From contig NZ_CP114771.1 in assembly GCF_027366395.1 (NCBI RefSeq), positions 4,588,001 to 4,652,000 of the forward strand: 64,000 nucleotides of DNA, given 5' to 3'. The stretch is from Endozoicomonas sp. GU-1. Its GTDB lineage: Bacteria > Pseudomonadota > Gammaproteobacteria > Pseudomonadales > Endozoicomonadaceae. The position numbers and the translations under genes were made by a program. Positions 1 to 22,022 of this stretch are shown piece by piece; position 1 is the stretch's first letter, and each line of letters opens with the position of its first letter. The notes below the pieces were generated by a model. It saw nothing but the letters and a program-made list of their open reading frames with translations. It made no database searches and had not been told where the DNA came from.

Positions 1-384
1 CATAGCCCACGTTCAGAAGGTGTTTATCATGTGCCCGGTTCAACCCATGAACCCAATGAAGATGAGCAAGTGATAGCCAATGCTCGTTGGCGTAAATTTG
101 ATCGGGAGTATATCAGTACGGTAAAAGGAGACTCGCTTGATATCTCTTGGCTGAAAGACCGTTCCATTATAGATGCTGCCACCCTTGGTAAGCCCGAAAT
201 CCTTGCGGAAAAAGCCATGACAGAGATGGTGGAAGCTCTACAAGAGATCAACAACCTAATGTTGGCACTTGGAGCCAAAGAAGCCTCTGACAAACTAATC
301 AATACTCTAGCCAGTGAGTTTGATCTTGCGCCTCGTGAAGAGTTGGAAACCATTACCGAAAATGGTGAAGAGGTTGAGGCGTGA
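1..384 (+). CDS. hsdM: Type I restriction-modification DNA methyltransferase subunit M, 3' end (partial)
   Basis: The reading frame is open from the first base and ends at 384, so the gene begins upstream of the window; the GTG at 31 is not a real start. The visible 127 residues are the C-terminal helical tail of an N6-adenine methylase, with no catalytic motif present. The call rests on position: hsdS follows immediately with its start a few bases past this stop, the usual M-S coupling of type I systems. HsdM binds S-adenosylmethionine and methylates the site chosen by HsdS. The restriction subunit hsdR is not downstream, so an R-M-S order with hsdR outside the window is expected. Confidence 0.85.
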   Translation, partial: HSPRSEGVYHVPGSTHEPNEDEQVIANARWRKFDREYISTVKGDSLDISWLKDRSIIDAATLGKPEILAEKAMTEMVEALQEINNLMLALGAKEASDKLINTLASEFDLAPREELETITENGEEVEA

Positions 385-386
385 TT

Positions 387-1787
387 ATGGAAAAATTGCC
401 AGAAGGTTGGGAGCGGTGCAGGCTTGGTGACGTTGTACAGTACGGTAAAACAACCAAAGCAGAGATGTCCTCAGTTGCAGATGACGTTTGGATTCTAGAA
501 CTGGAAGACATTGAGAAAAATACATCAAAGCTGCTGAAACGGGTCACTTTCGCTGAGCGAGCATCAAAAAGTGCCAAAAATATTTTTAACGCAGGTGATG
601 TTCTTTATGGCAAGCTCCGCCCATACCTAAATAAGGTAATCATTGCTCAGGAAGACGGCATTTGCTCCTCCGAAATTATCCCGCTTTCGCCCGATAGCCG
701 TTATGTGGACAAAAGTTATTTGTTTTACTGGCTCAAGGGACAAGAGTTTTTGTCTTATGTTGATGCGGTAAGTTACGGCGTAAATATGCCAAGACTAGGC
801 ACTAAAGATGCTGTAAACGCTCCGTTTTTGCTTGCTCCTAAAGAGACTCAGACACAGATTGCTGAAAAACTGGATGACCTGCTGGGACAGGTTGCCACTA
901 TCCAAGCGCGCCTTGATCAATTACCTGCCATTATCAAGCAATTTCGACAGTCAGTACTCGTTGCAGCAGTTACAGGTAACTTAACGGAAGCCTCGCGATG
1001 TTCTCTGTCAGCAGAAATAGGACTTTCACCGATTTCCGTTGGACCATCCAAAGCCAAGATTCCGGAGACGTGGAGCTGGAAAAAGCTAACTGAACTCACT
1101 GCTCTTGAGTCTGGCCATACTCCCAGAAAATCTATCCCTGAATATTGGGAGAATGGTGATCAGTACTGGATTTGCCTTCAGGATATCCGTGCAGCACATG
1201 GTAAAGTCATTACAGATACAAAGTATAAGCCGACAGCACTTGGTATCGATAACTCAAGCGCAAGAATGCTTCCCAAAGGCACTGTATGCTTTTCACGGGA
1301 CATTTCTGTTGGTTTTACCACGATAATGGGTAAAGAAATGTCTACAACTCAGCATTTTGCAAACTGGATATGTGGAAGCGCGTTGAACAACTTTTATCTT
1401 ATGTATGCCTTCATGGCTGCACAGCATGACTTAACAATTGGAGGACAAGGAACGACTGTAAAAACGATTTATATGCCCGCATTGAAGGAGTTCTATCTCG
1501 TTACTCCTCCAATTGAAGAACAAAGAGAAATTGTTGAGAAGGTACAGTCCTATTTCGGTATGGCTGAAGTTCTTGAAGCCAGCCTGAGAAAGGCACAAGA
1601 ACATGTAGATAATATAACACAGAGTATCTTAGCCAAAGCCTTCCGAGGTGAACTGGTAGATCAGCAGGAAGGCGATGAATCCGCCGAAGTTTTGCTACAA
1701 AAAATCGCCGAGGCCCGCGTCGAAGCTGAACTGCTGGAAAAAGCCACCAAAAAAGCAACCCGAGGCAGAAAGACTGCCAAAGCCTGA
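387..1787 (+). CDS. hsdS: Type I restriction-modification specificity subunit S
   Basis: This protein of about 466 residues selects the DNA target of the HsdR-M-S complex. It has the two-half plan of HsdS. The first target-recognition domain covers roughly residues 1-150, followed by a conserved helix with QIAEKLDDLLGQ and QFRQSVLVAAVTG. The second domain follows (about 215-385), then another helix with EIVEKVQSYF and SILAKAFRGELV. The charged tail is normal for the family. I prefer ATG at 387 over GTG at 381 because GAGG at 376-379 sits 7 bases upstream of the ATG. Translation is probably coupled to hsdM. HsdS domains are often exchanged by recombination; nothing here shows that directly. 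Confidence 0.93.
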   Translation: MEKLPEGWERCRLGDVVQYGKTTKAEMSSVADDVWILELEDIEKNTSKLLKRVTFAERASKSAKNIFNAGDVLYGKLRPYLNKVIIAQEDGICSSEIIPLSPDSRYVDKSYLFYWLKGQEFLSYVDAVSYGVNMPRLGTKDAVNAPFLLAPKETQTQIAEKLDDLLGQVATIQARLDQLPAIIKQFRQSVLVAAVTGNLTEASRCSLSAEIGLSPISVGPSKAKIPETWSWKKLTELTALESGHTPRKSIPEYWENGDQYWICLQDIRAAHGKVITDTKYKPTALGIDNSSARMLPKGTVCFSRDISVGFTTIMGKEMSTTQHFANWICGSALNNFYLMYAFMAAQHDLTIGGQGTTVKTIYMPALKEFYLVTPPIEEQREIVEKVQSYFGMAEVLEASLRKAQEHVDNITQSILAKAFRGELVDQQEGDESAEVLLQKIAEARVEAELLEKATKKATRGRKTAKA

Positions 1788-6872: not shown

Positions 6873-6932
6873 GAACCTGTGGCGTCAGGCTCAGTTAAAT
6901 AACCTGATGCCATTTCTTCAGGAGCAGTACCG

Positions 6933-7817: not shown

Positions 7818-7823
7818 TATAAT
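7815..7823 (+). promoter_or_regulatory. Extended -10 promoter upstream of a structured RNA
   Basis: TGATATAAT (7815-7823) matches the extended -10 consensus TGnTATAAT exactly. The -35 region is weak, as is usual for extended -10 promoters. It overlaps the end of the HTH gene (stop 7815-7817) and points into a 290-base region with no credible ORF but strong hairpins. Confidence 0.6.
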
Positions 7824-7829
7824 TCAAAG

Positions 7830-8120
7830 AAACCCAAAGCCAAGAGCTGAAGGCTCAAAACCCGTCTGACAGGCACTCAGACATACCCTTGTTACCTGTC
7901 TTGAATGACGTGCCGTATAGCTCGACCGACGCAGTCCGTCGTTATGCCGCCGGTAACGCCTTGAAATAGGCCAATTTGAAGGGGTAGCAGGAGTTTGCCA
8001 TATCGTTTGGCTAGATGAAGGTTCTGTGTTCAGAACTGGTTTCGAAAGGCTCTCTACCAATAGGGATTGGGGTGGGCGAAACCGGGTATTCTTCTGTTGA
8101 GGAGAATGCCCGGTTTTTAT
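7830..8120 (+). ncRNA. Candidate structured non-coding RNA, about 290 nt
   Basis: There is no plausible coding gene between the HTH stop and 8123, but there are a promoter, a terminator and several perfect stems. These include a CGACG/CGTCG hairpin near 7926-7940, GTTCTG/CAGAAC at 8021-8036 (loop TGTT), a 7-bp GGTTTCG/CGAAACC helix at 8038-8044/8077-8083 enclosing CCAAT/ATTGG at 8057-8070, and longer-range GGCAC/GTGCC and GTTACC/GGTAAC pairings in the 5' half. The 8077-8083 strand overlaps the terminator stem (8081-8092) by three bases, so the two helices compete. It does not resemble tmRNA, 6S, RNase P or SRP RNA as I know them. Function unknown. Confidence 0.55.
8081..8119 (+). terminator. 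Rho-independent terminator of the structured RNA
   Basis: A 12-bp stem ACCGGGTATTCT/AGAATGCCCGGT (one G-U type pair) with a 10-base loop is followed by TTTTTATTTTT on the plus strand. It is oriented for the RNA candidate and also stands between it and the convergent gene ending at 8123. Confidence 0.85.
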
Positions 8121-8122
8121 TT

Positions 8123-8518
8123 TTAAATCTGCTCAAAAGCTTTAAGGAATGGCTTTCGATCCTGATGAAAGCGAATATGGTCTTTGGAGTTCAGTCTTTT
8201 TCTTTTTTGCTGGAATGGCCGAGCCAGATATCCCCAAGGGGAGCGCCGGGAAAAATAGATGATGTAATCCAGATCAGCACTTCCCCACTTATTCTCAACG
8301 ATGACATCTTCCTGATTGGTATCCAGAAATTTGACCTGAATACGGTAAAAATTGTGTTTATCCGCCACCAGTAAGTCGGTTTTCATATCGTGGTCGATCA
8401 TTGGCAGGAAAACTTCCCAGCCATCGGATACAAGCCAGCTGGCGGCCTGAGATTCGTAGGAGATTTCTTTATAGTGACGTTGGGCAGGGGCAGTGCGAAC
8501 AATATGTTTAACTGGCAT
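8123..8518 (-). CDS. Small PD-(D/E)XK-like nuclease-fold protein
   Basis: 131 residues. The order of elements fits a minimal PD-(D/E)XK nuclease core: an early glutamate in a helix (SYESQAASWL), then MKTDLLVADK with a candidate metal-binding aspartate, then FYRIQVKFL giving the Q-x-K variant of the catalytic (D/E)xK. A central YIIYFSR strand follows. Proteins of this type occur in group I intron homing enzymes, Holliday-junction resolvase relatives and defence genes. No clear ribosome binding site precedes the ATG at 8518. It lies inside the presumed transposon between the RNA and tnsD and is likely cargo. Confidence 0.6.
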   Translation of the reverse strand: MPVKHIVRTAPAQRHYKEISYESQAASWLVSDGWEVFLPMIDHDMKTDLLVADKHNFYRIQVKFLDTNQEDVIVENKWGSADLDYIIYFSRRSPWGYLARPFQQKRKRLNSKDHIRFHQDRKPFLKAFEQI

Positions 8519-8760
8519 AGGGACACTAATAAATTCAATGCCCGAAAGAGGTTATGGCCCACCGTTTTCAAGCAGAATAGTCCCTTCTGGGAACCATTCT
8601 AAAATTTATTATCACCTTACAGGGTATCCCTTGTAACTAACTGCAAAGGCGGCCAGCCTTGCTTAAGCCTCGTTTGAAGCCTTGGGCATTAATGCAGCTA
8701 TCAGACAGTTTTGCCTGTGATAAAGACTTGCGAGCATCATAATCATAGCGATAGAAGAGT
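8519..8760. other. Intergenic region between the nuclease-like gene and tnsD
   Basis: 242 bases with no credible ORF on either strand, no obvious transposon end and no strong terminator. It must contain the end of the tnsD transcript and any promoter of the small minus-strand gene below it. Confidence 0.5.
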
Positions 8761-10650
8761 TCAACCAGGTATCAGCTCCTTCAGAGCCTTTTTTATGGCT
8801 TTGTTTTTTCGATAAAAGTGGCAGTAGCTATTATCAACTGTAGGCCCTGAAACGGGGTTGATTTTTTTGGTTTTGAGCAGCTTCCTTAATTTTTCACTGA
8901 CAATACCCGTCTGCTGACTTAAGGTTCGGAGAAGGTAGAACTTATTTTTGAAGGCCATCACAGCTGATTTTTTACAGGCTACGACAGGCCGAGATCTACC
9001 AGATAGATGAATTTTTTCCATAGGCAAGTGGTCATCATTAAGTAACCCATAAACGATGTCTTTATTACAGCCAAGGTGTTTCTGGATATCTAGCGGTTGC
9101 CAATACTCAGATGACGACTGAATCGAGGGACGTAAAGCTCTTACTTCCGCCTCAGAAAACAGTAGATCTCCCAAGACAGGTGCTTTACTGGCAGAAGCTG
9201 GCTGTAACTGGTCACTCAAAATAGCGTCCACAATTTCTGGCAACCCTATTTTGTGATATGAAAGCTGTTCGATGCTCTGTTGTAAACTCAGGCAATGAGT
9301 TCGTTTATACTCTTTAAACAGACATCGTTTATTAATTTCATGGAGAAGAGTATCGATGGCTTCTGGTTCAAAATACCAGCCCCTAGATTTGTCTACTGTC
9401 GGACCACGGAATGGAATAATGCCACCTTTACGAATCATTCCTCGTAGCTGGTAAACGGTTATGCCCAACTTTTCTGATGACTCAGAAATGGTCAGTAGTT
9501 TTTCCAGTAACTCCTTTAGAGCTGGGAGGTGCTTTCTTGAGATTAGTTTTATGTTGCTATTTGTGCTTTTTAAAGGGATCTTCAGGCGCTTACAGAAGCG
9601 CTGGAGCTGTTCAGGCCGAACATCAAGCTCTTTAGCTGCAACTCTAACTGCAACCTGATCTGCATTGATGCGTTTTTGCTTGAGGTCTTCTATCGTCTGT
9701 CTGATAGACTGCTTACGGTACGCGTTATATGCCTCCCAAAGAGGCTGGTAAATAGCCCTTTCCTGGTTTGCATTAATCAGATAAAAAGGAGCTCCTATCT
9801 CTTTGCTGATTCCGTCATTTGCTCCCTTATCTCGCCGTACTTTTCGACTGTCACTCAGCAACTGGCAGAAGTTATGAGGCCAGTTATCGAGGTAGCTCAT
9901 GGCATTGCTGTAGTGCTCATGGAGCTGATGATTAGGGGCAGATTTCAATGAGAGGAACTTTCTGGTCTTTTCCACATCATCAAGTAATTGATAGTCAAAA
10001 AGGGCCAAAGCACTGACCAGTTCCAAAACATCAGCCAAGCTATGATTCCTGAGTACTTCTGGAATTAAGCGATTGTTGGCTTCTTTATTCATACAGAGCT
10101 GATAGATGAATCTTGAAAGTCGGTATTCCTTTAGTAGAATTTTATCACCAGTGTAATGACGATAGTCGCATTCACAATTGTGACACCGGTGAATTCCAGG
10201 ACGATTCCATCTAAGGCGGGTATCGCATTCTGGGCAGTGGTCAAAAAGGTGAATATGGTGCGTAGGACAAACAGTTATAGCCGGGATATCCCAGACTGCA
10301 AGAGCCATATTATTGGATTCAAGGCATATGGGGCAAATTCGAGGGTAGTCGAGTCTTAAATGCTCATTGGCTATGTGATGATTGTGGATAATTGACTGTT
10401 TTTGATCATTCAAGCCATAGCGCAATGACTCCAAATCCTGCAAAGGCATATTGGTGATTTTTGCCAGTTTGCTGAGATCCGCATCACCCAGAACGTATTT
10501 ACTGGCCGTGTCATAATTTCTGCCAGTCCAGAGATCGGCCATCTCCAGTACGTACTGGGTTGTATGGTAACTGTTCGCCTGAGAAAGTCGGAGAATATAT
10601 CCTCGGAGACTTTCAAGCTTGTTGGATTTTGGCCTTGAAAGTAGCAGCAT
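8761..10650 (-). CDS. tnsD: TnsD-like target-selection protein (long TniQ family)
   Basis: 629 residues. The N-terminal TniQ domain carries the family zinc ligands in order: CPIC (about 108-111), CPTH (about 130), CPEC (about 143) and CHNC (about 161). The C-terminal half holds three helix-turn-helix-like modules, beginning near ISESSEKLGITVYQLRGM, QPLDIQKHLGCNKDIVYG and LSQQTGIVSEKLRKLLK, two of them followed by the same PVSGPTVDNS-type turn. Long TniQ proteins with a DNA-binding C-terminus are TnsD-type selectors that bind a chromosomal attachment site and recruit TnsC. The protein is clearly distinct from the shorter tniQ at 14916. Its start lies only 44 bases after the last CRISPR repeat on the same strand, so it is probably transcribed through the array. 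Confidence 0.88.
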   Translation of the reverse strand: MLLLSRPKSNKLESLRGYILRLSQANSYHTTQYVLEMADLWTGRNYDTASKYVLGDADLSKLAKITNMPLQDLESLRYGLNDQKQSIIHNHHIANEHLRLDYPRICPICLESNNMALAVWDIPAITVCPTHHIHLFDHCPECDTRLRWNRPGIHRCHNCECDYRHYTGDKILLKEYRLSRFIYQLCMNKEANNRLIPEVLRNHSLADVLELVSALALFDYQLLDDVEKTRKFLSLKSAPNHQLHEHYSNAMSYLDNWPHNFCQLLSDSRKVRRDKGANDGISKEIGAPFYLINANQERAIYQPLWEAYNAYRKQSIRQTIEDLKQKRINADQVAVRVAAKELDVRPEQLQRFCKRLKIPLKSTNSNIKLISRKHLPALKELLEKLLTISESSEKLGITVYQLRGMIRKGGIIPFRGPTVDKSRGWYFEPEAIDTLLHEINKRCLFKEYKRTHCLSLQQSIEQLSYHKIGLPEIVDAILSDQLQPASASKAPVLGDLLFSEAEVRALRPSIQSSSEYWQPLDIQKHLGCNKDIVYGLLNDDHLPMEKIHLSGRSRPVVACKKSAVMAFKNKFYLLRTLSQQTGIVSEKLRKLLKTKKINPVSGPTVDNSYCHFYRKNKAIKKALKELIPG

Positions 10651-10694: not shown

Positions 10695-10782
10695 TTATAT
10701 GGCTGCGTATGCGGCAGTGAGGCAGTTATCGATCATCCTTATTGTGATGTGTTAATTTTCAGCTGCGTATGCGGCAGTGAGG
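10695..10782 (-). CRISPR. Minimal type I-F CRISPR array: two repeats, one 32-bp spacer
   Basis: Two 28-bp repeats lie exactly 60 bp apart (10755-10782 and 10695-10722), enclosing a 32-bp spacer at 10723-10754; 28+32 is the type I-F geometry. In the crRNA sense both repeats begin CCTCACTGCCGCATACGCAG, close to the I-F consensus with its ACTGCC...GCAG hairpin. They diverge in the last 8 bases: the first ends CTGAAAAT, the second CCATATAA. A degenerate final repeat is typical of I-F3 transposons, where the terminal guide is set apart. The array is downstream of cas6 and upstream of tnsD, on their strand. The spacer in crRNA sense begins TAACACATCACA and ends CGATAACTG. Confidence 0.9.
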
Positions 10783-10918
10783 TAGAGAAAAAAACTATAG
10801 CCCATTGAAAGAATAAGGCTTACCCCCAACTTAAAAGAAATACCCTTTTTCTTCATAGTTCCTGATCAAAAAACAACTCATTGAAAATAATAAAGAAAAA
10901 TACCACATGCATACCCTC
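10783..10918 (-). promoter_or_regulatory. Leader-like interval between cas6 and the CRISPR array
   Basis: 136 bases, AT-rich, without an ORF. I see no clear -35/-10 pair reading into the array. Either the array is transcribed from the cas operon or a weak leader promoter lies here. Confidence 0.4.
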
Positions 10919-11560
10919 TCAAAATATTGGTGTGATTAGAGGCACTGAAGCCCTGTGCTCCTGAAGAGTACTAAACCCGTAATGATCGAAAGTCTGCAAA
11001 CCTTCAAGTTCTTCACTCTCATCAACCGGCACCATTTGAATACAAAGAGGCATATTTTGCCCCGTACTCATGCTGTCTGGAAAAAACAGATGGAAGAAAA
11101 TATCTTGGACTTCTGTCTGATGCTGGTCACTCCTCGGCTTATACTCAGCTGGGCTACTAATTTCACCACGGTCAATCTGTCTGCGTATTATACGTTTAAC
11201 CTTGCGTTGCTGGCCTTTGGGTGAATTACTCGTGATCCTCTGGTTCCTTAAAAATATGGCTTTCTGGGCATTTTCTGGATCAACTTCCAGAAGCTTTGAT
11301 TCCAGGATCTCACCATCAAGCATATCTCTAAAATACTCGCGTTCCATTATTTTATTAAGAACAGTCGAATCACCATAGAAAGCAATCGAACGGCCTGGGT
11401 CATCAACATTCCATTCAGGAAATAGAGTACCTATTTGGTTGTTACCATAATGAGCAATTACAGGATGCGATTCTTGCAAGATATAGCTCAGCAAGAACTG
11501 TGGATCAGCATCTTCAGTAATAATTTTAAACAACAGATGATTCATAAAGTACAATCTCAT
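10919..11560 (-). CDS. cas6f: Cas6f (Csy4-type) crRNA endoribonuclease
   Basis: 213 residues, the usual size. The N-terminal ferredoxin-like part has the family pattern NQIGTLFPEW (compare NIGVSFPLW in other I-F3 Cas6). A basic region KVKRIIRRQIDRGE at about 120 matches the arginine-rich helix that grips the repeat hairpin. The C-terminus HYGFSTLQEHRASVPLI follows the conserved SSYGLS...PVPLI ending. Cas6f cuts each repeat 3' of its hairpin and stays bound as the head of Cascade. The gene overlaps the end of cas7f by ATGA. The frame is intact. Confidence 0.93.
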   Translation of the reverse strand: MRLYFMNHLLFKIITEDADPQFLLSYILQESHPVIAHYGNNQIGTLFPEWNVDDPGRSIAFYGDSTVLNKIMEREYFRDMLDGEILESKLLEVDPENAQKAIFLRNQRITSNSPKGQQRKVKRIIRRQIDRGEISSPAEYKPRSDQHQTEVQDIFFHLFFPDSMSTGQNMPLCIQMVPVDESEELEGLQTFDHYGFSTLQEHRASVPLITPIF

Positions 11561-12691
11561 GGATTAGTTAAATCAATTTGAGTCTTATCTGATTTATCTT
11601 TTTTCTTTTTTTTAGAACTTTCGCGGTTATAAACACCTCCTTTAATCAAGTTAGCCATACAAAAGTGAATATCGCCTAGTTCCAGTATTGATTCTTTACT
11701 GAATATATCGCCGCTAAATTTTTTAAGGGTCAATATATGATCCTTTATGTTACTAATCAACGAATAGAAGTCCTGCTTGGTTCCACGCCCTCGTATAGCC
11801 CTGTGGGATTTACTGTCCAGGCCGTAAACACTTACCGGAATGTCTACCCCGAGTTTGTTCCAACGATCCCACCGCAATCCAGCGCCAATCTTTGTTGGGT
11901 GTAACATGGCCTGACGAATATCACCCAACCTGTAAAAGGCGTAGTGCCGAGATTTCTGGTATTTACCACGTCGATGGAGAAACTCTTTTTTAGCTTCAGG
12001 CAACTTTTCTATAAATTCCTCACTTGGATGGACCTCTTCGAGTCGTCCAATCTCAAGTGCCGCAGTTATAAAAAGGCGAAGCAATCTTCGTTCACCAATC
12101 AGAGCCTTTTCAATGTTTCTAATTAGTGAGTCAAACTGAAGTTTATTCGTCCCTGTCAGCTGATCAGCTGCGCATGGTAGGCCACGGAATTCATAGGGTG
12201 GGAATACTTTGTCGCTAACATTAATGATGCTCAGTGTCATAGCATCACTTTCCTGATTATTGCGCCAGAATGGCAGGCCTTGGAAAAGAGCATCTATTTG
12301 GCAGTACGCCTGATACAAGTACCCCCTTTTCTCCATAAACCTGACTCAACTCCTCTAGGAGTTCTGTCCATTCAGGATTGTTGCAAGAATGTGGAGTTAG
12401 AGATCTTGGCAAGTATTTGAGGGGGAATTGTATGACTAAATTATCAGCGTTATGGGGTAGTTGACATATATCCATCCGCAGAGGCATCCACTCCCCTAGT
12501 TCGGTATCCACTTCCCCGTGCCCGGCACTATGTGTAGATTGCGCACCGCGACCATTTAGAATGTCAACTGCTACAGGAAGCACTTCACCCTTAAACGTTC
12601 TGGCACTCATCAAGCCGAGTGAGGGGGCAGATGACTTTTCATAAGTCAGAATCGTCGGAATAGGGGGAACAGCCATCGTGAACCTCAACAA
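11557..12691 (-). pseudogene. cas7f: Cas7f (Csy3) Cascade backbone subunit, split by a +1 G in a G run
   Basis: Two overlapping frames together make one Cas7f. The first (12691 down to about 12320) starts MLRFTMAVPPIPTILTYE and runs to ELSQVYGEKG. The second continues YLYQAYCQIDALFQGLPFW and ends with LGDIHFCMANLIKGG, the conserved Cas7f C-terminal signature. They meet in AAAAGGGGG near 12323-12331; four rather than five G would give one frame of about 377 residues (about 372 from ATG 12676, the likelier start), close to the usual 350. Cas7f coats the crRNA spacer in six copies. Either the gene is inactivated or the G count is wrong; nothing else is damaged. Confidence 0.88.
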
Positions 12692-12698
12692 CAGAATG

Positions 12699-14869
12699 TT
12701 ATTCAGCTTGGCACAAAATTGTTTTTCCTGCCGACTTGTAAGACCAAAATAAGGGTAATAGGTGGAACTCCTCGAAGGAGATTTCCGTTATCAGTCTAAG
12801 CTCCTGAACTCCAACGACGGGCTCACAGTATGCATGGTACTCCAGACGACTACCAAGACGCTGTACAGGCTCTTCCAGCAGTTTATAACCAATGCCAGAA
12901 AAAGTGAGTTGTCTCCTATCAGGGGCTAGGTCCTTGTATGCAGAAAAAGCATCTACCAGATCTTCAAGAATATCATCAGACTTTCGTGTAAATTTTGACG
13001 AATAATCCAGGACCATCCATCTGGGAGTTCCTTCAACCTGCAACCCATAAAGCAACTCTTGCGTTGACTGATAGATCTGGAATGATTCTGCAAGGTAGTC
13101 ACTGGCAAAACCCTCTTCAGCAGTGCTGACCATGCCCGAGGCAAATTTAACAGGGAGGCATTCTGCCAGTAAATGTCTGACTGAGATTAGTTGTTCATAA
13201 TCGGAAGAACATTCCAGAACTAAATCAAATGTAAGATGACAAAACTTAAGACTCACGACATCGGACAGGGCTGTTTTGGTTTTACCATTCCAGCGGGCTG
13301 GCTCATGCTTTTTGATACCCTTTACACGCTGAAAACTGTGAATTAACCAAGCCACTTTTATATTGCTAATTTCAAACTGGAATTGGCTTTTAATGTTTCT
13401 GCACAACCGATCTGCAAACCCAACCAAAGCAGTAATTGCAGGTAGGCCAGTGGTGTATGGAGAGTTGTCGGCATGAGCATGCATAACCGTCAATTTTGGT
13501 ATCAGCATATAAACGGTGGACGCATGAAAGGAAGCCTCTTCATTGTTTTTACTTACGGGGCTCTCACCGGTTACGATCTCCGGCTTTGCTAACTCAATAC
13601 TTCCTCTGAACAAAGGCTTGAGATGGTTCCGGACACTTTCGCTGATGTACCTGGTAAGCGTGGGGTGATAAGTAAGCTGCTTGTAGCGGGTTCCTGATAT
13701 GTATTTCTGAATAACTGCATTCGCTTGTTTCCAGATATGCTGCATCGCCTGCTCAGAGAGCTTCGCCTCAACCACATAGCTTACCTGGGTTGCATTTAAT
13801 CCCTTGATATTTTCCTTCTGAAGGTCTCCAATCTGATAGGTGAATCTAAGCTGATCGAGCTTGGCAAACATTCTTGCAATGTTCTTGTGTATCAAATTGA
13901 GGAAGGCTGCCTTTTCCGGTGACTTCGGAGAGGGAATGTACCAGTTAGAGGCAAATTCCGCCCTCTTTCTAAGTTTCAGGAAATCGCTAAAATCCAGACC
14001 AGATGTGTCAAACAGGTCGTTTTGTTCCTCAGCTCTTTGATAATTTGAGATGTGGTTAAAGCTACTTCTGATCGTAAATTAATATCCGGTGCCAAAACTC
14101 CAATACTGCCACCGGTAGAGACTGCGAATGCACCAATATTTTCTGGGCGAGTTGGATTATGGAAAGCTCGGCCAATTAATCTTCCATTATCGCTAAGGCA
14201 CAAGGTATGAATGGCTGCCTGAACCTTTGATGCCGATACAGGCGAAAGAGAAATATAATCGGTGTTACCATTTTCATAAGTATAAGGAATAAGCACCTGA
14301 ACCTGATAGGGAGGCACCGAGTCTGGAAAAGCATGATCTCTATGAATCTGACAAGAGCTTTTGATAAGCTCATGATGAGCTTTGGTGAGCCCCATTCCTG
14401 TCAGAATACCAATAAGATCAGACGACTCCTTAATGAATTCATGATAAAGAGTTGTTTGTCTACCGTTATGAATGAACTCAGTACAGAGGAAGTACCTCTT
14501 TGGCATGTATTTGGCATTGCCAGCCCAGTCATACTGGTGGTGATATTTAACCGAGTCGTTGTAAATGTAAGGAGTATCTTTTACAAAATTGGATTCTGGT
14601 AAAAATACTCGAGCTTTTACTTTTGCATCGAATATTTTAGGGTTGTGGGTTAAAAACCCCCTCAAGGCTTTGCAGGTTTCAGTGATGAAATGACTGTCTT
14701 TTAACAATTTCTTTGCAGCTTGTAAGGCAGTGCCTGCACCTGATGTTTTGGGTTTATACTTGGCTGACTGGTTGATTATTTGAGTAAAGAATTTCTTTTC
14801 TTTCCCGGTTACATCATTAGGAATAGCCAATATTGATGTCAAAAATTTATCACTTTTATTGCTAACCAT
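12699..14869 (-). pseudogene. cas8f: Cas8f-Cas5f fusion of an I-F3 Cascade, split by a one-base loss in an A run
   Basis: Upstream part (14869 to about 14017) shows TDYISLSPVSASKVQ, equivalent to TSYISLSPV in known I-F3 Cas8. The downstream part shows LTVMHAHADNSPYTTGLPAITALVGF, equivalent to the NIRVCGATALSSP...GIPSLTAF region of the fused Cas5 part, and YKLLEEP near the end. The downstream frame is open well above its first ATG (EEQNDLFDTSGLDFSDFLKL). Adding one A to CAAAAC near 14015-14019 joins both halves into 723 residues, reading KELRNKNDLFDTSG. The fused Cas8/Cas5 is diagnostic for the I-F3 transposon subtype, recognises the CC PAM and contacts TniQ-bound Cascade. As written it is broken. 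Confidence 0.88.
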
Positions 14870-14915
14870 ACCATTTAAACATTACAGATAATTTATAGGT
14901 AGCTAGTATGATAGT

Positions 14916-16157
14916 TTACTCAAGCTCTTTGTTCTTGTAGCGAGTTAGCAAAATTGCAAAAACCTGACTTAGTGGATATAAAGGAACATAGGCTTCGAGC
15001 TTTTTTTGTGAAGCCAATAAGCGACCTTGGGCCGTCAGTTGAGCAACTGTGTTTGTACTCACCTGCAAGATCAATGCAGTCTCCTGTTTTGTAAGCAGTA
15101 AGTTTGACACTGCGTGACGGCTTTTAGTTTCTTTCTCACTCGCACATACTTTCTGAAAAAATTCTAGAGTTTCTCTGAGGACTGCGTTGTGTTTCAAACA
15201 ATTATCTGGAAGATTTTGAACTTCTTGTATTAGTCTTCCGAATACCTTATTGAATCCTGTTTTATATGCCGGCTTAACCAACAGCCGTAAACCTTTTATC
15301 ACTTTATTTTCCAAGAAGTCTTTATAAGCAACTGGCCAGTCGCGTAGAAAATCATGAAAGGCTAGTATCTTATCTGAGTCAACACCATATTCGCTAATAG
15401 AATTGCCATCATCAATATAGCGAAAGTAAAAAAGCGCAAAGCAGAACAGATGAAATACATTACTACCCAGGCAGGATAATTTTTCTGATTCAAATACAAT
15501 ACCTTTATTAAAAGCGTGCGCAATTAAACTCGAGGTTTCAAGTAACAAATCATATTCAAGATTTATAGATAGAGAGGTTGAAGTGGCTTTTTTCAAATCA
15601 AACCCACACGAACAGTTAGAGATGCTCCTGCTTTTTATATAAGAAATAGAGACCCCACACTTTGGACACTTATCAATTAAAAAAACTTTATGTGTCGGAC
15701 AGATTATATTGACAGATACGTGCCAATACTGCCGTATATATCCACTTTCAGCCAAACAGGCAGGGCAAACCGGAACGAAATACCTTCGATACAGAGTATT
15801 TGGTATTTTTACATTTTGGTAAATAAAGTTTGATAGATTATTTGAGCACTTGGTTATCGATCTGCTCAAGGTTATATCTCGTAGCGATTGACTTGTAATG
15901 CCAACTCTGGCTGCCAGCCGATCAACACCTCTATAACGAATCTCGGGGTGCAAATTAGCATGAAACAGATTAAATTCATCAAATCCAGGGACAGAACTAT
16001 CTGCTACGCCATCGATACCTAAGCATATGAATCTAATCAAACTTCTCAGCGAAATACTATTTGATCTTGCAACTCTTATCAAATAGCTTTCTAGTGTTTC
16101 ATCTGGGAAGACTTTAGGCCTGCTTAAGAATGGCGAACAACCAATTTCTCTATCCAC
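14916..16157 (-). CDS. tniQ: TniQ, Cascade-associated transposition targeting protein
   Basis: 413 residues, the size of the Cascade-linked TniQ of I-F3 elements (about 394). The zinc ligands run CPAC (about 135), CPTH (about 157), CPKC (about 170) and CSC (about 187). The N-terminus PDETLESYLIRVARSN is the TniQ family opening. A small HTH-like segment follows near the C-terminus (LTKQETALILQVSTNTVAQL). As a dimer it binds the Cas6/Cas7 end of Cascade and recruits TnsC to the R-loop. It starts 24 bases after tnsC and ends 46 bases before cas8/5f, so it sits in one continuous operon. Confidence 0.93.
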   Translation of the reverse strand: MDREIGCSPFLSRPKVFPDETLESYLIRVARSNSISLRSLIRFICLGIDGVADSSVPGFDEFNLFHANLHPEIRYRGVDRLAARVGITSQSLRDITLSRSITKCSNNLSNFIYQNVKIPNTLYRRYFVPVCPACLAESGYIRQYWHVSVNIICPTHKVFLIDKCPKCGVSISYIKSRSISNCSCGFDLKKATSTSLSINLEYDLLLETSSLIAHAFNKGIVFESEKLSCLGSNVFHLFCFALFYFRYIDDGNSISEYGVDSDKILAFHDFLRDWPVAYKDFLENKVIKGLRLLVKPAYKTGFNKVFGRLIQEVQNLPDNCLKHNAVLRETLEFFQKVCASEKETKSRHAVSNLLLTKQETALILQVSTNTVAQLTAQGRLLASQKKLEAYVPLYPLSQVFAILLTRYKNKELE

Positions 16158-16181
16158 TTAAATACCAACATAAAAAAACAA

Positions 16182-17213
16182 TCAAAAAAAACCTGCTGAT
16201 CGACCTAAGGTAAAGATGTCTCGTACACTCAACTCTCTGGAGTTTGGTAGAACTATCTTCTTCTTAGACTTATCCCAATCTGGGCTTGATTCAATCTGAA
16301 CAGCTTTCATATCCTTATATTCAGGCACGAATGGATTTGGCTTAGAAGAACCAAAATGAAACCTATATAGATTATAAAATGTTTTTACATTTAAAATCCT
16401 CACTTCGGATAATGATGACGCATGAGCAATTAGCTTCATGATTAGCTTGGGGCAGCCATTACTCGATATAAATAATGGAAACAACACTTCTGGCTCAATT
16501 AAACAACCAGCATCTATTGAAAATTCTTTTTTCAATCTTGAGGATAATGTATTTAAAAAACTGCAGTATATTTCAAGACTATCTTCATCACTTATTTTAA
16601 AAGGAAACAACTCTTCGACTATTGTAAATATTGTCCCCATTTGCTGATTATTACTTTGGATACGTTGCGCCCAAGGCATACCAATACCAACGATCGGGAT
16701 CTTAGTTTCCTTTATTAGAAGCTTCAACCAATCAGCAGTAAAAACAATTTCAGCACTGCTCATTGCCTGTGTTAAATGATGAAACTCATCAATGATAATC
16801 ATCCTAGTCTTACAGGTGTCTCTAAGATAATCTATAAGACGCGCATTTTTGAGATCAAATGAATCACTTGAATCCCAACGAGGATCACCTATAGCCTTTA
16901 AAAAGGCTCGAATTGCTTCGTATCTTTTAGCATGGGAAGGAAGAGAAAAACGTACAATAGGTTTAATTGAATTAATTCTGTCACCTAAATCTTCTTCATA
17001 GTCAGGATAAGATTTATGAAACAATTCTGCAACCAGTGACTTTCCTAGACCACTGTCACCGATAAGCAAAAAGCATGTAGGTTCAGTAGCTCCATCAAAG
17101 CTATCGAAGCAGAATTGCAATAACTCTTTGACTCCTTTAGCTGATTCATGCCAAATAAAATATTCATTATAAATCTTTCCGTATATTTTATTATTTTTGC
17201 TACTCATCATCAA
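16182..17213 (-). CDS. tnsC: TnsC AAA+ transposition regulator
   Basis: 343 residues. Walker A is LLIGDSGLGKS (about 49-59) and Walker B is RMIIIDEFHHL (about 135-145); sensor-like GIGMPWAQRI follows. TnsC polymerises on DNA in an ATP-dependent way, bridging the target selector (TniQ/Cascade or TnsD) to the TnsA-TnsB transposase and enforcing target immunity. Its start overlaps the tnsB stop by 14 bases. AT content in tnsABC is visibly higher than in the core genes after 19.9 kb, fitting acquired DNA. Confidence 0.95.
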   Translation of the reverse strand: MMMSSKNNKIYGKIYNEYFIWHESAKGVKELLQFCFDSFDGATEPTCFLLIGDSGLGKSLVAELFHKSYPDYEEDLGDRINSIKPIVRFSLPSHAKRYEAIRAFLKAIGDPRWDSSDSFDLKNARLIDYLRDTCKTRMIIIDEFHHLTQAMSSAEIVFTADWLKLLIKETKIPIVGIGMPWAQRIQSNNQQMGTIFTIVEELFPFKISDEDSLEIYCSFLNTLSSRLKKEFSIDAGCLIEPEVLFPLFISSNGCPKLIMKLIAHASSLSEVRILNVKTFYNLYRFHFGSSKPNPFVPEYKDMKAVQIESSPDWDKSKKKIVLPNSRELSVRDIFTLGRSAGFF

Positions 17214-19134
17214 AGTTCCTTAGCTTACGCTTCCCCATTGTCTGAGTTGATAGAGACTCCAAGTCTTGATGATCTTTTCTACGACTACTTTCATTGACAG
17301 AAGCACCTTCTTTTGTTGATATTCCTCTATATTTTGCTATAGCTTTTGAAGCGGCTTTTTTACTCTTACCATCAACAAGGGTCTTTACTAATTTATTTAG
17401 CTCCACCTTTGCTGCGTGTAAATTCTCACCCTCTTTATTTGAAAGTTTCATAAAGTCATTTGCATAACGCCTAATCACTTTATGCTGCCAGTAAGTCAAC
17501 CCTCCAGCATATTCAATATCAATTGCAGGAACAGAAAAATATTCACCACTAAACTTATTAAGCACATATATACAACCCATATCTTCAGGATTGTATTTAA
17601 TCAGTACATTTTCATTATTTTGATATCTTGCTCTATATTCAGATAACTCTCTTGAATCATATTTAAGATAATCTATCTGAACACCGCCAACTTTCAGCAT
17701 ACGCTTTTCTGTTTTTCCAAGAATTATATCCAGACTATCTTTAGAAAAAATCTCTCTGGGAACTTCATTAATACTACTAACCCAAGCTTTATGCGGAACA
17801 AGTACTCGACCATTACTGATCCTAATTTCTTCATAAGGATAGATATCAACCAGCCATTTATAGAATACTGAAAGAAACTCATTAAAGGTCATAATTGCTT
17901 CTTTTTCAGGATCATATTCTTGTTTTTTGAAAATACTGGAAAATGTTTTACCTTTTATATTCTCAATAAGTCTTGCATTTTGTCGTCTAAAGAAATTTTC
18001 GATACTGCCTTTTTCCCACCCTTTTTTCACTCTTGCATAATGAAGATTTATATCAAGATCAAGACAGGCAAACTTTAAGTCTTCAGACCAAAATTCCCTG
18101 GCATTATCAACTGTAAGCTCATCCATCTTGCCGAAATATGGAAAGCTATTTTTTATATTTTGAAACTGTGATTTTAAATATGTTTTTGGCAAAAGTGCAC
18201 TTTTAAGCGCTTTGGCAACAGTTAGATAACTCCCCTCATAAAATGAGATACAGACACCTAGTGGCACTCTTGAGTATTTATCAATAATCACTGTTATATA
18301 AGGTCTCCCAAGTGGTAGAAGGGTTTCATCATCAAGCAAAAAATAATCCAAGGTTGTATGATCTGCTTCCGCTCTTTGTAACACACGCTTTGGGGGTGCA
18401 TGAAATTTAGTAACCCTGAACTCTTCTTTGGCCTGTCTTACTCCTTCCCTCTTTTCTTTTATTTCATAAGGAGGAATTTTCTTAATTTCTCTCTGCATTG
18501 TTGAATAAGATGGAACCGGAATATCATCATCATTCTGTTTATTGTACTCCTTTATCGCTGTTTCTAATTGTCGATGAGTTTCACTCAAGCTAATCCTTTC
18601 CTTAGTCAAATAAACCTCTTTAATAACTTCATCAATCAACTCTTGCAGTTTGCCCCTTTTTCTTTCATAGCTACCACAGTTATCCAGATGATCAATCAAC
18701 CCCCTTATAGATCTTCCATTTTTTATATACTCTTTTCTCCAACGACTCACAGACCTCCAAGAGGGTGGCTTCAGATTATTATTCTCCGCTATGCTATCGA
18801 TTATCACTTGAGTTTTAGGAGAAATAGAAAAAACTCCTTCTTCTTCTAAACCTTTTATAAATTTATGTCGATACTCTGCCCTTTCCTTTTCTGATTTATT
18901 ATATGAATTTAAATCTTTACTCTTAGACTGAAGCCTTTCATTTCCAACAGTTTCTTCATTAATTAATTTAATACTTCCATTTTCAATACCTTCTAAAAGC
19001 TCTATTTCAGGAATCCTGATCTCTGTCTTAGAGAGTACATCTAAAGTTAGAACTATTCTGCTATTCCATGAAATAACTTCACACAGCCGATCATTATAAT
19101 GAAACTGCATTCCAGATGTTAGTGTTACCTTCAT
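17200..19134 (-). CDS. tnsB: TnsB DDE transposase
   Basis: 644 residues. N-terminal DNA-binding HTH domains lead to the RNase H-like core: first aspartate in RAEADHTTLDYFLL, second in LTVDNAREFWS, glutamate in KGSIENFFRRQN. A Mu-type beta-barrel and a charged C-terminal tail follow; the tail is where TnsB contacts TnsC. TnsB binds the repeated sites at both transposon ends and joins the 3' ends to the target. The gene overlaps tnsA by 41 bases and tnsC by 14, so translation is coupled. There are no frameshifts. Confidence 0.95.
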   Translation of the reverse strand: MKVTLTSGMQFHYNDRLCEVISWNSRIVLTLDVLSKTEIRIPEIELLEGIENGSIKLINEETVGNERLQSKSKDLNSYNKSEKERAEYRHKFIKGLEEEGVFSISPKTQVIIDSIAENNNLKPPSWRSVSRWRKEYIKNGRSIRGLIDHLDNCGSYERKRGKLQELIDEVIKEVYLTKERISLSETHRQLETAIKEYNKQNDDDIPVPSYSTMQREIKKIPPYEIKEKREGVRQAKEEFRVTKFHAPPKRVLQRAEADHTTLDYFLLDDETLLPLGRPYITVIIDKYSRVPLGVCISFYEGSYLTVAKALKSALLPKTYLKSQFQNIKNSFPYFGKMDELTVDNAREFWSEDLKFACLDLDINLHYARVKKGWEKGSIENFFRRQNARLIENIKGKTFSSIFKKQEYDPEKEAIMTFNEFLSVFYKWLVDIYPYEEIRISNGRVLVPHKAWVSSINEVPREIFSKDSLDIILGKTEKRMLKVGGVQIDYLKYDSRELSEYRARYQNNENVLIKYNPEDMGCIYVLNKFSGEYFSVPAIDIEYAGGLTYWQHKVIRRYANDFMKLSNKEGENLHAAKVELNKLVKTLVDGKSKKAASKAIAKYRGISTKEGASVNESSRRKDHQDLESLSTQTMGKRKLRNFDDE

Positions 19135-19804
19135 CTGCGAACCTCACATACATATTTGTGGAAAACATTTTATGAACATCAAACTCTATAATCCCCTTGC
19201 TAATTAATGTATATGCATGATAGTTTACAACCTCTGGTTCGTTACCAGTCAATCTACATGCTATTTTCAGAAGTTCTTTTAACCTTACGAAATTTCCTTC
19301 ATACCCAGAGAAGATATTTTTAAATAGATTCATATACTGCTCATCAATATCTGATTTTCGATAGCTTTTAAATTGCAACATATTTTGATAAAGCACGCGG
19401 TTCTTTTCAAGAAACTCATCAATAATTAAAAAATTAAAACCTTGCTTCTTTAAATCGTATTCAATAGATCCATATTTCTCTTTATCACTCTTATGGGTAT
19501 TTATATCAAAAGAATCAGTTTTCACTTCAAAATACCATTCTCCATCTGAAAATGTATAAGCAAAAAAATCGGCTGTGTATTCATGACTCTCCTGATCTAT
19601 GTGGTACATTATCCTTGGCGGCTGTGAAATGTAACTCTGAATTCGCGTATCAAACTCCAGAAAATGACAGAACTTATATTCATCTTCAGTCTGAAGGAAC
19701 AGCACATTGTTATTCTTTCTGCTTGCGAACATCCAGTTAGAGTTCACAGCCGACATTTTAATTACTCTGCCGTGCTTATCTTTTGGTTGAAATCTCCGAC
19801 TCAC
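19094..19804 (-). CDS. tnsA: TnsA endonuclease of a Tn7-like transposon
   Basis: 236 residues. The restriction-endonuclease-like core is visible: a conserved glutamate region EYKFCHFLEFD, then YTADFFAYTF, then EWYFEVKTDS carrying the catalytic E-x-K. TnsA cuts the 5' strands at the ends so the element moves by cut and paste; its separate gene (not fused to tnsB) matches I-F3. GTG 19804 is the first possible start because TAG lies in frame 15 bases upstream; GGGGG 9 bases before it may serve as ribosome site. ATG 19753 is the alternative start. Confidence 0.93.
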   Translation of the reverse strand: MSRRFQPKDKHGRVIKMSAVNSNWMFASRKNNNVLFLQTEDEYKFCHFLEFDTRIQSYISQPPRIMYHIDQESHEYTADFFAYTFSDGEWYFEVKTDSFDINTHKSDKEKYGSIEYDLKKQGFNFLIIDEFLEKNRVLYQNMLQFKSYRKSDIDEQYMNLFKNIFSGYEGNFVRLKELLKIACRLTGNEPEVVNYHAYTLISKGIIEFDVHKMFSTNMYVRFADEGNTNIWNAVSL

Positions 19805-19857
19805 AAAAAAAGCCCCCTACACAGATACCTTAGTATCAAAAATAGGAGGCTTTTAAG
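19805..19857 (-). terminator. Hairpin with T-run between parE and tnsA
   Basis: AAAAGCCTCCTA pairs with TAGGGGGCTTTT (19843-19854 with 19808-19819), with an inner GATAC/GTATC hairpin, and on the minus strand it is followed by seven T directly against the tnsA GTG. It should stop transcription coming from parE, so tnsA needs readthrough or a promoter within this short interval. Confidence 0.75.
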
Positions 19858-19934
19858 GCTTGTCAATTTTACTGATTAAAATATTGACAAGCTTTATGAC
19901 GAATTGCCAAACTTAACGATGAAATTCAAGATCA
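19858..19934. other. Probable parE-proximal end of the Tn7-like transposon
   Basis: The interval between the parE stop and the tnsA hairpin must contain the transposon end if the element lies at parE. On the minus strand TTGGCAATTCGTCATAAAGC is followed directly by TTGTCAATATTTTAATCAGT, an imperfect 20-bp direct repeat resembling tandem TnsB sites. A 10-bp inverted repeat GCTTGTCAAT/ATTGACAAGC (19857-19891) overlaps it. The only TGT suitable as a Tn7-like terminus begins at 19889, about 45 bases past the parE stop. I cannot fix the exact end without the partner end. Confidence 0.5.
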
Positions 19935-21827
19935 TTAAGCAATTTCAACCAGATTCCCCCTGGACTCCAACCAGGTCTTACGGTCTGAACTGCGCTTCTT
20001 GGCCAGCAGCATGTCCATCCGCTGAGTCGTCTCCTGCTCATCGTCGAGAGTCAACTGAACCAAACGACGAGTGTCAGCAGACATGGTGGTTTCACGAAGC
20101 TGCAGAGGGTTCATCTCGCCCAGTCCCTTAAAGCGTTGCACATTGATCTTGCCTTTCTCTTTCTCGGCACGGATGCGTTCAAGAATGCCTTCTTTCTCCG
20201 CTTCATCCAGGGCGTAATAGACGTCTTTGGCCACATCAATCCGGTAGAGCGGAGGCATGGCCACATAAATGTGGCCGCGTTCCACCAGCGGGCGGAAGTG
20301 TTGAACGAACAGGGCGCAGAGCAGGGTTGCGATGTGCAAGCCATCGGAGTCCGCATCGGCCAGGATGCAGATTTTTCCGTAGCGCAAACCATCCAGGTTA
20401 TCCGATGCCGGATCAACCCCCAGGGCTACGGAGATGTCGTGTATTTCCTGGGAGGCCAGTACTTCTGAGGAGTCCACTTCCCAGCTGTTGAGGATTTTAC
20501 CCCGCAACGGCATGATGGCCTGGTACTCACGGTCACGGGCCTGCTTGGCAGAGCCGCCCGCCGAGTCCCCTTCCACCAGGAACAGTTCGGTCATGCTCAG
20601 GTCCTGACTGGCACAATCCGCCAGTTTGCCCGGCAGTGCTGGCCCCTGGGTTACTTTTTTACGGGCGACCTTCTTGGCTTTGCGCATCCGTTTCTGTGCG
20701 TTGCTGATGCAGAGTTCTGCCAGCAGTTCAGCTTCAGCGGTGTGTTGGTTCAGCCAGAGGCTAAAGGCATCTTTTGCCACACCGGAGACAAAGGCGGCAC
20801 ACTCTCTGGAAGAGAGGCGTTCTTTGGTCTGGCCGGAGAATTGTGGGTCTGCCAGCTTGGCAGATAATACGTAGGCGCAGTTTTCCCACAGGTCATCGCC
20901 ACCGAGTTTCACCCCACGGGGCAACAGGTTCCGGAACTCACAGAATTCCCGGATGGCTTCCAGAAGACCGGTTCTCAGGCCATTCACATGGGTGCCGCCC
21001 AGCGGGGTGGGAATCAGGTTGACATAGCTTTCCGTCAGCAGTTCACCGCCCTCGGGTAACCATTGGACGGCCCAGTCTACCGCCTCACTTTCCCCTTTCA
21101 GGGAACCGGTAAAGGGTTCAGTGGGGAGCACGGCAAAGCCTCTGGTGGCACTTTTGAGATAGTCATTCAGGCCATCTTCGTAGTACCACTCGGTCACGTC
21201 TTCAGAAATCCGGTCATCAAATTCAACCCGCAGGCCAGGGCAAAGGACGGCCTTGGCCCGGAGAATATGCATTAGTCTTGGTACGGAAAATCGTGGGGAG
21301 TCGAAGTAGCTGGCATCGGGCCAGAAACGAACCATTGTTCCGGTATTGCGACGTCCGCAGGTGCCGGTTTCGTGAAGGTCTTCATCCTTGTAGCCATCTT
21401 TAAAGCTGATGGCTGAAACAACGCCGCCACGGCGAACGGTCACTTCCAGACGGCTGGAGAGCGCATTGACCACAGAGACACCCACCCCGTGCAAACCACC
21501 GGAGAACTGGTAGTTCTTGTTGGAGAATTTACCACCGGCATGCAGGCGGGTGAGAATAAGCTCAATACCCGAGATGCCATGTTCCGGATGGATATCGGTG
21601 GGCATGCCACGGCCATCATCCACTACTTCCAGAGACTGGTCTTTGTGCAGGGTGACCTTGATATGGGAAGCAAACCCTGCCAGCGCCTCATCCACACTGT
21701 TGTCGATGATTTCCTGGGCAAGATGGTTTGGCCGGGTGGTGTCGGTGTACATTCCGGGGCGTTTGCGCACCGGGTCGAGGCCACTGAGTACCTCAATCGC
21801 CTCGGCATTGTAGTCGTTCTTTACCAT
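19935..21827 (-). CDS. parE: DNA topoisomerase IV subunit B
   Basis: 630 residues from the chosen start. The GHKL ATPase motifs are present (EIIDNSVDEALAG, DDGRGMPTDIHP, GGLHGVGVSVVNALS), then the transducer domain, then the TOPRIM domain with ELFLVEGDSAGGSAKQ, PLRGKILN and the DADSDG metal site. With ParC it unlinks replicated chromosomes. The ORF is open back to 21872, but the first 15 residues lie in a MITE terminal repeat. ATG 21827 (MVKNDYNAEAIEVL) aligns with the E. coli start and has AAGGA just upstream. Its 3' end borders the Tn7-like element. Confidence 0.97.
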   Translation of the reverse strand: MVKNDYNAEAIEVLSGLDPVRKRPGMYTDTTRPNHLAQEIIDNSVDEALAGFASHIKVTLHKDQSLEVVDDGRGMPTDIHPEHGISGIELILTRLHAGGKFSNKNYQFSGGLHGVGVSVVNALSSRLEVTVRRGGVVSAISFKDGYKDEDLHETGTCGRRNTGTMVRFWPDASYFDSPRFSVPRLMHILRAKAVLCPGLRVEFDDRISEDVTEWYYEDGLNDYLKSATRGFAVLPTEPFTGSLKGESEAVDWAVQWLPEGGELLTESYVNLIPTPLGGTHVNGLRTGLLEAIREFCEFRNLLPRGVKLGGDDLWENCAYVLSAKLADPQFSGQTKERLSSRECAAFVSGVAKDAFSLWLNQHTAEAELLAELCISNAQKRMRKAKKVARKKVTQGPALPGKLADCASQDLSMTELFLVEGDSAGGSAKQARDREYQAIMPLRGKILNSWEVDSSEVLASQEIHDISVALGVDPASDNLDGLRYGKICILADADSDGLHIATLLCALFVQHFRPLVERGHIYVAMPPLYRIDVAKDVYYALDEAEKEGILERIRAEKEKGKINVQRFKGLGEMNPLQLRETTMSADTRRLVQLTLDDEQETTQRMDMLLAKKRSSDRKTWLESRGNLVEIA

Positions 21828-21857
21828 GAGTCCTTGCTGACTGATCGCTTTATGATG

Positions 21858-22022
21858 TAAGTAGCTAACCATATGAAATCATACATTTCTGACTCCTTGT
21901 TCAGGTACTCTGCTTCGTTACAACTCCGGTCACATAGCTACGGCTATGCTCCCTCCGTTGTGCCTCGCATAGCACCTGCCCAAGTAGCCAGAAATATATG
22001 ATTCCATATGGCCAGCTACTTA
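21858..22022. mobile_element. MITE-like repeat with 34-bp terminal inverted repeats between yqiA and parE
   Basis: TAAGTAGCTAACCATATGAA at 21858 extends through ATACATTTCTG to 21891; the right end (21989-22022), reverse-complemented, reads the same with few changes. The 97-base centre is GC-richer and holds the short hairpin AGCTACGGCTATGCT-like segment. There is no ORF. It behaves as a non-autonomous element and may carry the parE promoter. Confidence 0.75.

Follow-up and report, generated by a model that had tools for sequence, protein, structure and literature searches.

CRISPR-associated transposons (CASTs; CRISPR, clustered regularly interspaced short palindromic repeats) of type I-F3 associate the transposition genes tnsA, tnsB and tnsC with a tniQ gene and with I-F Cascade genes, and the present analysis deals with one such element found in a window of 64,000 nucleotides, i.e., bases 4588001-4652000 of the single-contig, 6.09-Mb genome of Endozoicomonas sp. 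GU-1. In Tn6677, the layout is split and cargo lies between tnsABC and tniQ-cas. As outlined in PMC11406308, the Tn6677 type (I-F3a) homes by means of a guide RNA in place of TnsD, and a third I-F3 branch, in which Tn7017/EasCAST is listed, possesses two TniQ proteins, one of them directing insertion next to parE. The account of Tn7017 in PMC10293859 describes a dual tniQ-tnsD equipment, with TnsD used for homing, within a tnsC branch mostly lacking Cascade. Two target selectors, including one long TnsD for the chromosomal site, are also attributed in PMC11406308 to the type I-B1 and I-B2 CASTs and to Tn7, which differ by another type of Cascade, or none, and by the use of glmS or a tRNA gene as a site.

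The element of the window very probably belongs to the parE-homing, two-TniQ branch (EasCAST/Tn7017 type) of the type I-F3 CASTs, with a length of about 31.4 kb and a cargo of defence genes. The branch is already known and the window element adds to it. In a limited literature search, neither the elements of the window genome (G000) and of two related genomes (G019 and G011), nor any publication joining parE, a CRISPR-associated transposon and Endozoicomonas, were found.

Gene Organization of the Element

All the core genes are located on the minus strand and succeed one another, from the parE side, in the order tnsA-tnsB-tnsC-tniQ-cas8/5-cas7-cas6-array-second TniQ gene, with tnsA to the array extending from 19804 to ~10695. 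The tnsA gene (19094..19804, 236 aa) gives a weak TnsA-like profile match below the cut-off, and its product is homologous to TnsA of the elements from G019 (L020), from Endozoicomonas ascidiicola AVMART05 (genome G008, contig NZ_LUTV01000003.1, L022/L068) and from plasmid pS44-1 of A. salmonicida (L089). The tnsB gene (17200..19134, 644 aa) encodes a protein with Mu-transpos_C and rve domains that matches PseTnsAB and Tn6677 TnsB in the PDB, tnsC (16182..17213, 343 aa) encodes an AAA+ ATPase recognized by the TniB profile (8.9e-24), and tniQ1 (14916..16157, 413 aa) encodes a putative Cascade partner (TniQ profile, 8.7e-20) whose nine PDB matches are all TniQ chains. The cas6 gene (10919..11560, 213 aa) matches Cas_Csy4 (2.9e-17) and, above its cut-off, TIGR02563. 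Beyond the array, tniQ2 (8761..10650, 629 aa) is a tnsD-like gene, whose product, the putative parE targeting protein, contains a TniQ domain (8.7e-17) and an HTH_17 domain (3.3e-07, residues 385-436) in a C-terminal part predicted to bind DNA, and is 56% and 65% identical to its counterparts in L020 and L022, respectively.

The two remaining Cascade genes are each distributed over two frames. The cas8/5 region (12699-14869) comprises an N-terminal piece of 297 aa (13976..14869), devoid of any Pfam match of its own and sharing 66% identity with the unbroken L022 protein (719 aa) over residues 2-273 of the latter, and a C-terminal piece of 398 aa in a different frame (12699..13895), which matches the Cas_Csy2 profile and is 61.5% identical to L022 residues 273-719; comparison with the uninterrupted forms found in two relatives locates the break near 14027-14036. 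The cas7 region (11557-12691) similarly consists of an N-terminal piece of 144 aa (12257..12691, Cas_Csy3 profile positions 2-120) and a C-terminal piece of 259 aa in a different frame (11557..12336, positions 137-327); its break, near 12323-12339, coincides with a stretch of five C. Both genes are intact single frames in L020 and L022 (718/719 aa for cas8/5 and 371/373 aa for cas7), and Cas8 and Cas5, which are fused in one frame in these relatives, occupy a region of equal extent in two frames of the window. The other six core genes of the window, tnsA, tnsB, tnsC, tniQ1, cas6 and tnsD (tniQ2), are open. The I-F3 CAST gene set, namely tnsA, tnsB, tnsC, tniQ and the I-F Cascade genes, is present with two Cascade genes frame-broken, and neither I-F Cas1 nor I-F Cas3 occurs in the whole genome (zero TIGR03637 or TIGR02562 matches at E <= 0.001).

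An initial annotation of this stretch had proposed the same order on a single strand, from tnsA to the array, and checks of the open reading frames (ORFs) and profiles agree with its coordinates. The gaps of at most about 50 bases that it reported up to cas6 reach a maximum of 46 bases (tniQ/cas8), and the pairs tnsA/tnsB, tnsB/tnsC and cas7/cas6 overlap. Its assignment to type I-F3 is supported by the gene set, the fused Cas8/5 and the grouping of Cas7, and its suggestion of an Endozoicomonas-like host by the window genome belonging to the same genus as E. ascidiicola. The genes it listed are correct, but the second TniQ gene, the frame splits and the transposon ends were missed, and cas8/5f and cas7f had been taken for single genes.

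Relatives of the Element and Comparison of Layouts

In a family set of 37 genomes, TnsB was detected at E <= 1e-20 in 12 genomes, including that of the window. Besides the window element, elements of the parE type occur in G011, G019 and G008, with TnsB identities of 99%, 72% and 35%, respectively, G019 belonging to another genus than the window genome. The elements of G019 and G008 exhibit the full continuous order at the parE site, together with a second TniQ and open cas genes. In the G011 copy, insertion sequences disrupt tnsC and tniQ1, and the 40 kb retrieved yielded no cas gene; three Csy3 matches occur elsewhere in the G011 genome, none of them recognized as being of the parE type. The trees built from TnsB (100/100, 32 rows) and TnsC (100/99) unite the four parE elements in a single clade, and the clade of parE elements is similarly recovered with a support of 100/100 in the Cas8/5 (9 rows), Cas7 (10), Cas6 (10), TniQ1 (17) and TniQ2 (14) trees. 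These seven protein trees leave TnsA out, they represent Cas8/5 and Cas7 of the window by their C-terminal pieces (259 aa for Cas7), and in those of TnsB and TnsC the row L037 bears the label CAST, although no cas genes are seen in its stretch.

The closest described system, Tn7017/EasCAST, taken here as the E. ascidiicola element, shares with the window the complete order parE|tnsA-tnsB-tnsC-tniQ-cas8/5-cas7-cas6-array-tnsD on one strand, a clade support of 100/99 or better in the seven trees, and Cas pieces and TnsD that are 52-69% identical. It differs by TnsA, TnsB, TnsC and TniQ1, which are only 29-36% identical, by another right-end sequence, by intact Cas8/5 and Cas7, which are broken in the window, and by four repeats against two. 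The A. salmonicida pS44-1 element, which we take to be Tn6900 (I-F3b), also has tnsABC and tniQ-cas8/5-cas7-cas6 on one strand over ~9.5 kb. However, tnsC is separated from tniQ by two small genes, one of them coding for a helix-turn-helix (HTH) regulator, no second TniQ is annotated beside cas6, and the element is distant in all trees. The Tn6677 type possesses the same tnsABC, tniQ and Cascade set, and the window proteins are homologous to the solved Tn6677 TnsB (9y7b) and to I-F3 TniQ, Cas7 and Cas8/5 chains, but its split layout is that of other family elements, in which 9-13 kb separate tnsABC from tniQ (L030, L033, L034 and L036). This distance falls to ~4 kb in L031, and the split layout also occurs in L097. 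In a plasmid element of Photobacterium toruni, tnsABC and tniQ-cas are separated by two genes, one of the HTH kind and the other 2.7 kb long. The compact order is not unique to the parE branch, and the premise of the initial annotation that tnsABC usually lies apart from tniQ-cas is valid for L030, L031, L033, L034, L036 and L097, but no more than two genes intervene in the A. salmonicida pS44-1 and P. toruni elements. The deep branch with a shared continuous order that it anticipated was retrieved, by the trees and by the order seen in G019 and E. ascidiicola, but this branch is not a new one, the element being placed inside a known I-F3 clade with the same layout.

With respect to the wider distribution, the window TnsB was found, within the order, in 18 of 390 genomes (E <= 1e-60) and, within the class, in three of 369, the window's included, and the E. 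ascidiicola TnsB in five of 381 genomes at E <= 1e-70. An order-wide tniQ2 search gave three of 390 genomes at E <= 1e-40 among the matches listed, one of them, G017, with a distant TnsD; G019 carries tniQ2, yet it is not among the matches listed. A scan of the genome collection with two short peptide patterns of tniQ2, which is no measure of the rarity of the branch, retrieved one relative (E. ascidiicola AVMART05) among 25 candidate stretches. As separate observations, G008 (L036 and L022) and G020 (L034 and L035) each possess a pair of tnsABC sets from different branches, both sets having I-F cas genes in their vicinity, and G019 contains five Csy3 (Cas7f) matches, of which one belongs to the parE element, one is a short fragment and the rest are of other I-F kinds.

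Insertion at parE and Putative Target Selection

The host attachment gene parE (19935..21872, minus strand) is present in 35 of the 37 family genomes, and the four elements of the branch, three of them with cas genes, all occur at its 3' end. The right end of the window element is located at position 19928, 6 bp past the parE stop. This outer right end (TGAATTTCATCGTTAAG..., 19907..19928, minus strand) was delineated from the start of the identity shared with G011 and G019 beside parE and from the empty-site junction of G010, the sequence past parE being common to G000, G011 and G019 from TGAATTT onwards. A site matrix scan predicts three TnsB-like sites on the minus strand (19855..19917, at 19899-19917, 19879-19897 and 19855-19873); the matrix was derived from three right-end sites each of G000 and G019, and its independent support comes only from the left-end clusters, located at genome position 4576485 in G000 and, in G019, at a distance of ~20 kb from the right end. 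Both left ends start with TGAATGTCA. The element accordingly spans 4576485-4607928, its left 11.5 kb lying outside the window. In G010, which offers the empty site, both G000 flanks abut with 8 shared bases and no element between them, and in G019 the target duplication is an exact 5 bp, CTTAG. The gene order, the ends, the site and the phylogenetic place of the element, as well as the frame breaks in the assembly, are observed features.

By homology and according to the reviews cited above, TnsD (tniQ2) would bind the end of parE and recruit TnsC together with TnsAB, resulting in an insertion a few bases past the parE stop, whereas TniQ1, associated with Cascade and a guide RNA, would serve a second route towards other target DNA. 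The window copy probably homes by TnsD, its RNA-guided arm being out of use unless the frame breaks reflect sequence errors, and homing by TnsD could still work because the six core genes quoted above are open.

Some points weigh against this assignment. The tniQ2 product matched no solved structure by sequence, its TnsD role being taken from homology, and its predicted model, with a mean predicted local distance difference test score (pLDDT) of 44.3, is too poor for use. The duplication in G000, TGATCT on both sides, is read either as 6 bp or, if a slip is allowed for, as 5 bp. The origin of EasCAST from E. ascidiicola is presumed from the name and from the AVMART05 contig. Finally, the frame breaks could be assembly errors, above all that of cas7 at the run of five C.

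Other elements are also encountered at this site. L024 (G017, 2330-9054) is another Tn7-like element at the parE 3' end, whose TnsD-like gene (22% identity) is on the opposite strand and whose stretch yielded no cas gene, and parE seems to be a site shared by several Tn7-like lineages. In L046 (G016), a right-end-like sequence resembling, by eye, that of the E. ascidiicola element occurs downstream of parE, with a 23-residue tnsA match (69.6%) beside parE, and G016 is without TnsB at E <= 1e-20; L046 is either a remnant or an assembly gap.

Frame Breaks in the Cascade Genes

Because cas8/5 and cas7 are frame-broken, the RNA-guided route of the window copy is probably lost. Alternatively, the breaks could be sequence errors and the element fully active by both routes, a possibility that we regard as real but rather doubtful. 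It is consistent with the occurrence of only two small breaks, one of them at the five-C run, with the open state of the other six core genes and with the intact cas8/5 and cas7 of two relatives. However, among 48 ORF queries taken from relatives, a single one is spread over two frames, compared to two of the eight core genes; these overlapping queries (several relatives, both strands, identity of at least 88%, E <= 1e-40) are distributed into 44 in the flanks and parE and four in the tns/tniQ genes of the element. In addition, decay is visible elsewhere in the branch, as in the near-identical G011 element, whose tnsC and tniQ1 are interrupted and for which the 40 kb retrieved contained no cas gene, and the window array holds only one spacer. 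A loss of the RNA-guided route is retained as the preferred explanation.

Relationships with Other I-F3 Systems

The initial annotation had also raised the possibility of a separately assembled or ancestral CRISPR transposon, which would have captured Cascade independently of the other I-F3 elements. The long stem that connects the branch to the other I-F3 elements in the trees and the TnsC tree, which places the branch among elements without cas genes (84/83), would be compatible with such an origin, as would the account of PMC10293859, in which the Tn7017 tnsC branch stands far from the other I-F CASTs, mostly without Cascade, with several gains or losses suggested. However, a 27-row Cas7 tree that also samples other I-F systems of the family places the parE clade as the sister group of the remaining I-F3 sequences, away from 15 other Csy3 sequences, with a support of 94/90, just under the starred threshold. 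Moreover, all eight solved chains matched by the fused Cas8/5 of a relative originate from entries that also hold a TniQ chain, and the TnsB tree gathers in one group (96/97) the branch, the remaining CASTs and two elements of the same genus that are devoid of cas genes. An independent capture is accordingly very unlikely, and the idea of a separate assembly finds no support in view of the Cas7 grouping and the Cas8/5 matches.

CRISPR Array

The array (10695..10782, minus strand) has a 60-base period and a repeat core common to the L020 and L022 arrays. It consists of two I-F-type repeats, at 10755-10782 and 10695-10722, on either side of a 32-base spacer (10723-10754). The second of these, which is the last of the array, diverges in its 3' part, and the last repeat is atypical in all three arrays. 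The window thus has two repeats against four in the E. ascidiicola element, and the G019 and E. ascidiicola elements contain four and three spacers, respectively. Other I-F repeats close their hairpin with a C-G pair; the repeats of L020, L022 and the window, the latter folded as a 3'-shortened stretch, show a C-C mismatch at this place, with four base pairs and a seven-base loop.

A spacer directed against the attachment gene, the hallmark of guide-RNA homing in I-F3a/b, was not found in the window. Every 32-base segment from cas6 to tniQ2 differs from the G000 parE by more than 12 mismatches, and the best parE matches near the arrays of G019 and G008 show 11 mismatches out of 32, in a comparison without a shuffled control. 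Thirty-four bases (28 of the spacer and 6 of the repeat) gave no match in plasmids or phages, and 30 bases of the spacer matched one of the 37 family genomes, in its own array only; these target searches dealt with one of the eight spacers of the three elements, that of the window. Homing to parE by a guide RNA placed behind the atypical repeat, as in most I-F3 elements, rather than by TnsD, would fit the atypical last repeat of the three arrays, but was rejected as extremely improbable in the absence of a guide matching parE near the window array at this cut-off, the window spacer being confined to its own array and a second TniQ being present in all three elements.

Possible Exchange of the Cascade and TnsD Block

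The contrasting identities between the window and EasCAST quoted above, low for TnsA, TnsB, TnsC and TniQ1 and high for the Cas pieces and TnsD, differ from those between the window and G019, which amount to 61-71% for TnsABC, 41% for TniQ1, 46-60% for the Cas pieces and 56% for TnsD. Along TniQ1, the identity of the window to both relatives reaches ~60% only in residues 350-400. Among the 28 pairs of eight elements, the Shewanella element L091, without tnsB in its stretch, being left out, the ratio of TnsB to Cas tree distances ranges from 0.39 to 1.00 in 26 pairs, but rises to 1.99 for G019-EasCAST and to 3.41 for window-EasCAST. Simple distances of TnsA+B+C versus Cas similarly give 0.59-1.01 in 26 pairs, 1.63 for G019-EasCAST and 2.45 for window-EasCAST (bootstrap 2.19-2.75), none of 300 bootstraps coming down to the largest value of the other 26 pairs. 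TnsB and TnsC reject a grouping of the window, G011 and EasCAST without G019 (p-AU, approximately unbiased test, 0.0005 and 0.0009), and the Cas trees weakly favour the window with EasCAST (73/78 with nine rows, 81/84 with eight rows, 93/90 for Cas7 and 86/86 for Cas6), a grouping that is not resolved in the Cas8/5 and TniQ2 trees.

Two observations run counter to an exchange. The TnsB branch of EasCAST is longer than those of its relatives, so that an accelerated evolution may play a part, although the TnsC branches behave in the opposite way. In addition, Cas does not reject the window with G019 (p 0.26 for the concatenated proteins and 0.31 for Cas7), and the conflict therefore rests on distances. 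Synonymous sites, considered as a clock, were saturated and of no use. On balance, the sequence comparisons lean towards a Cascade and TnsD block that would have been swapped between deeply diverged TnsABC and TniQ1 cores, the limit of the swapped block being close to the tniQ1 end; such an exchange is likely, and the tree topology is no proof of it.

Cargo Genes and Neighbouring Features

The cargo within the window includes, on the plus strand, the specificity subunit of a type I restriction system (381..1787, PADLOC Specificity_I, 1.1e-105) and a Gabija-like system made of gajA (1879-3219 and 4686-4991, PADLOC GajA profile) and gajB (4981-6597, PADLOC GajB profile). This Gabija-like system is also probably inactive, because an ISL3 insertion (3213-4466, ISL3 transposase) cuts through gajA. 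Further cargo comprises a DrmD-like SNF2 protein, a neighbour without any profile match and type I restriction genes. A thiamine pyrophosphate (TPP) riboswitch also occurs in the window (44313-44413, minus strand).

Significance for the parE Branch

The known branch gains new members, two with cas genes (G000 and G019) and one remnant (G011). If the exchange is true, the window element and EasCAST would represent one target-choice block carried by two old transposase lineages, and would offer natural evidence that a new combination of Cascade and TnsD with different TnsABC/TniQ proteins is feasible. The elements also form a series, from intact (G019 and E. ascidiicola) to frame-broken (window) and to a copy in which no cas genes were found (G011). 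Together with the mismatch between the divergence of the transposase and that of Cascade, this series makes the Cascade gain and loss suggested for the branch testable with a few loci.

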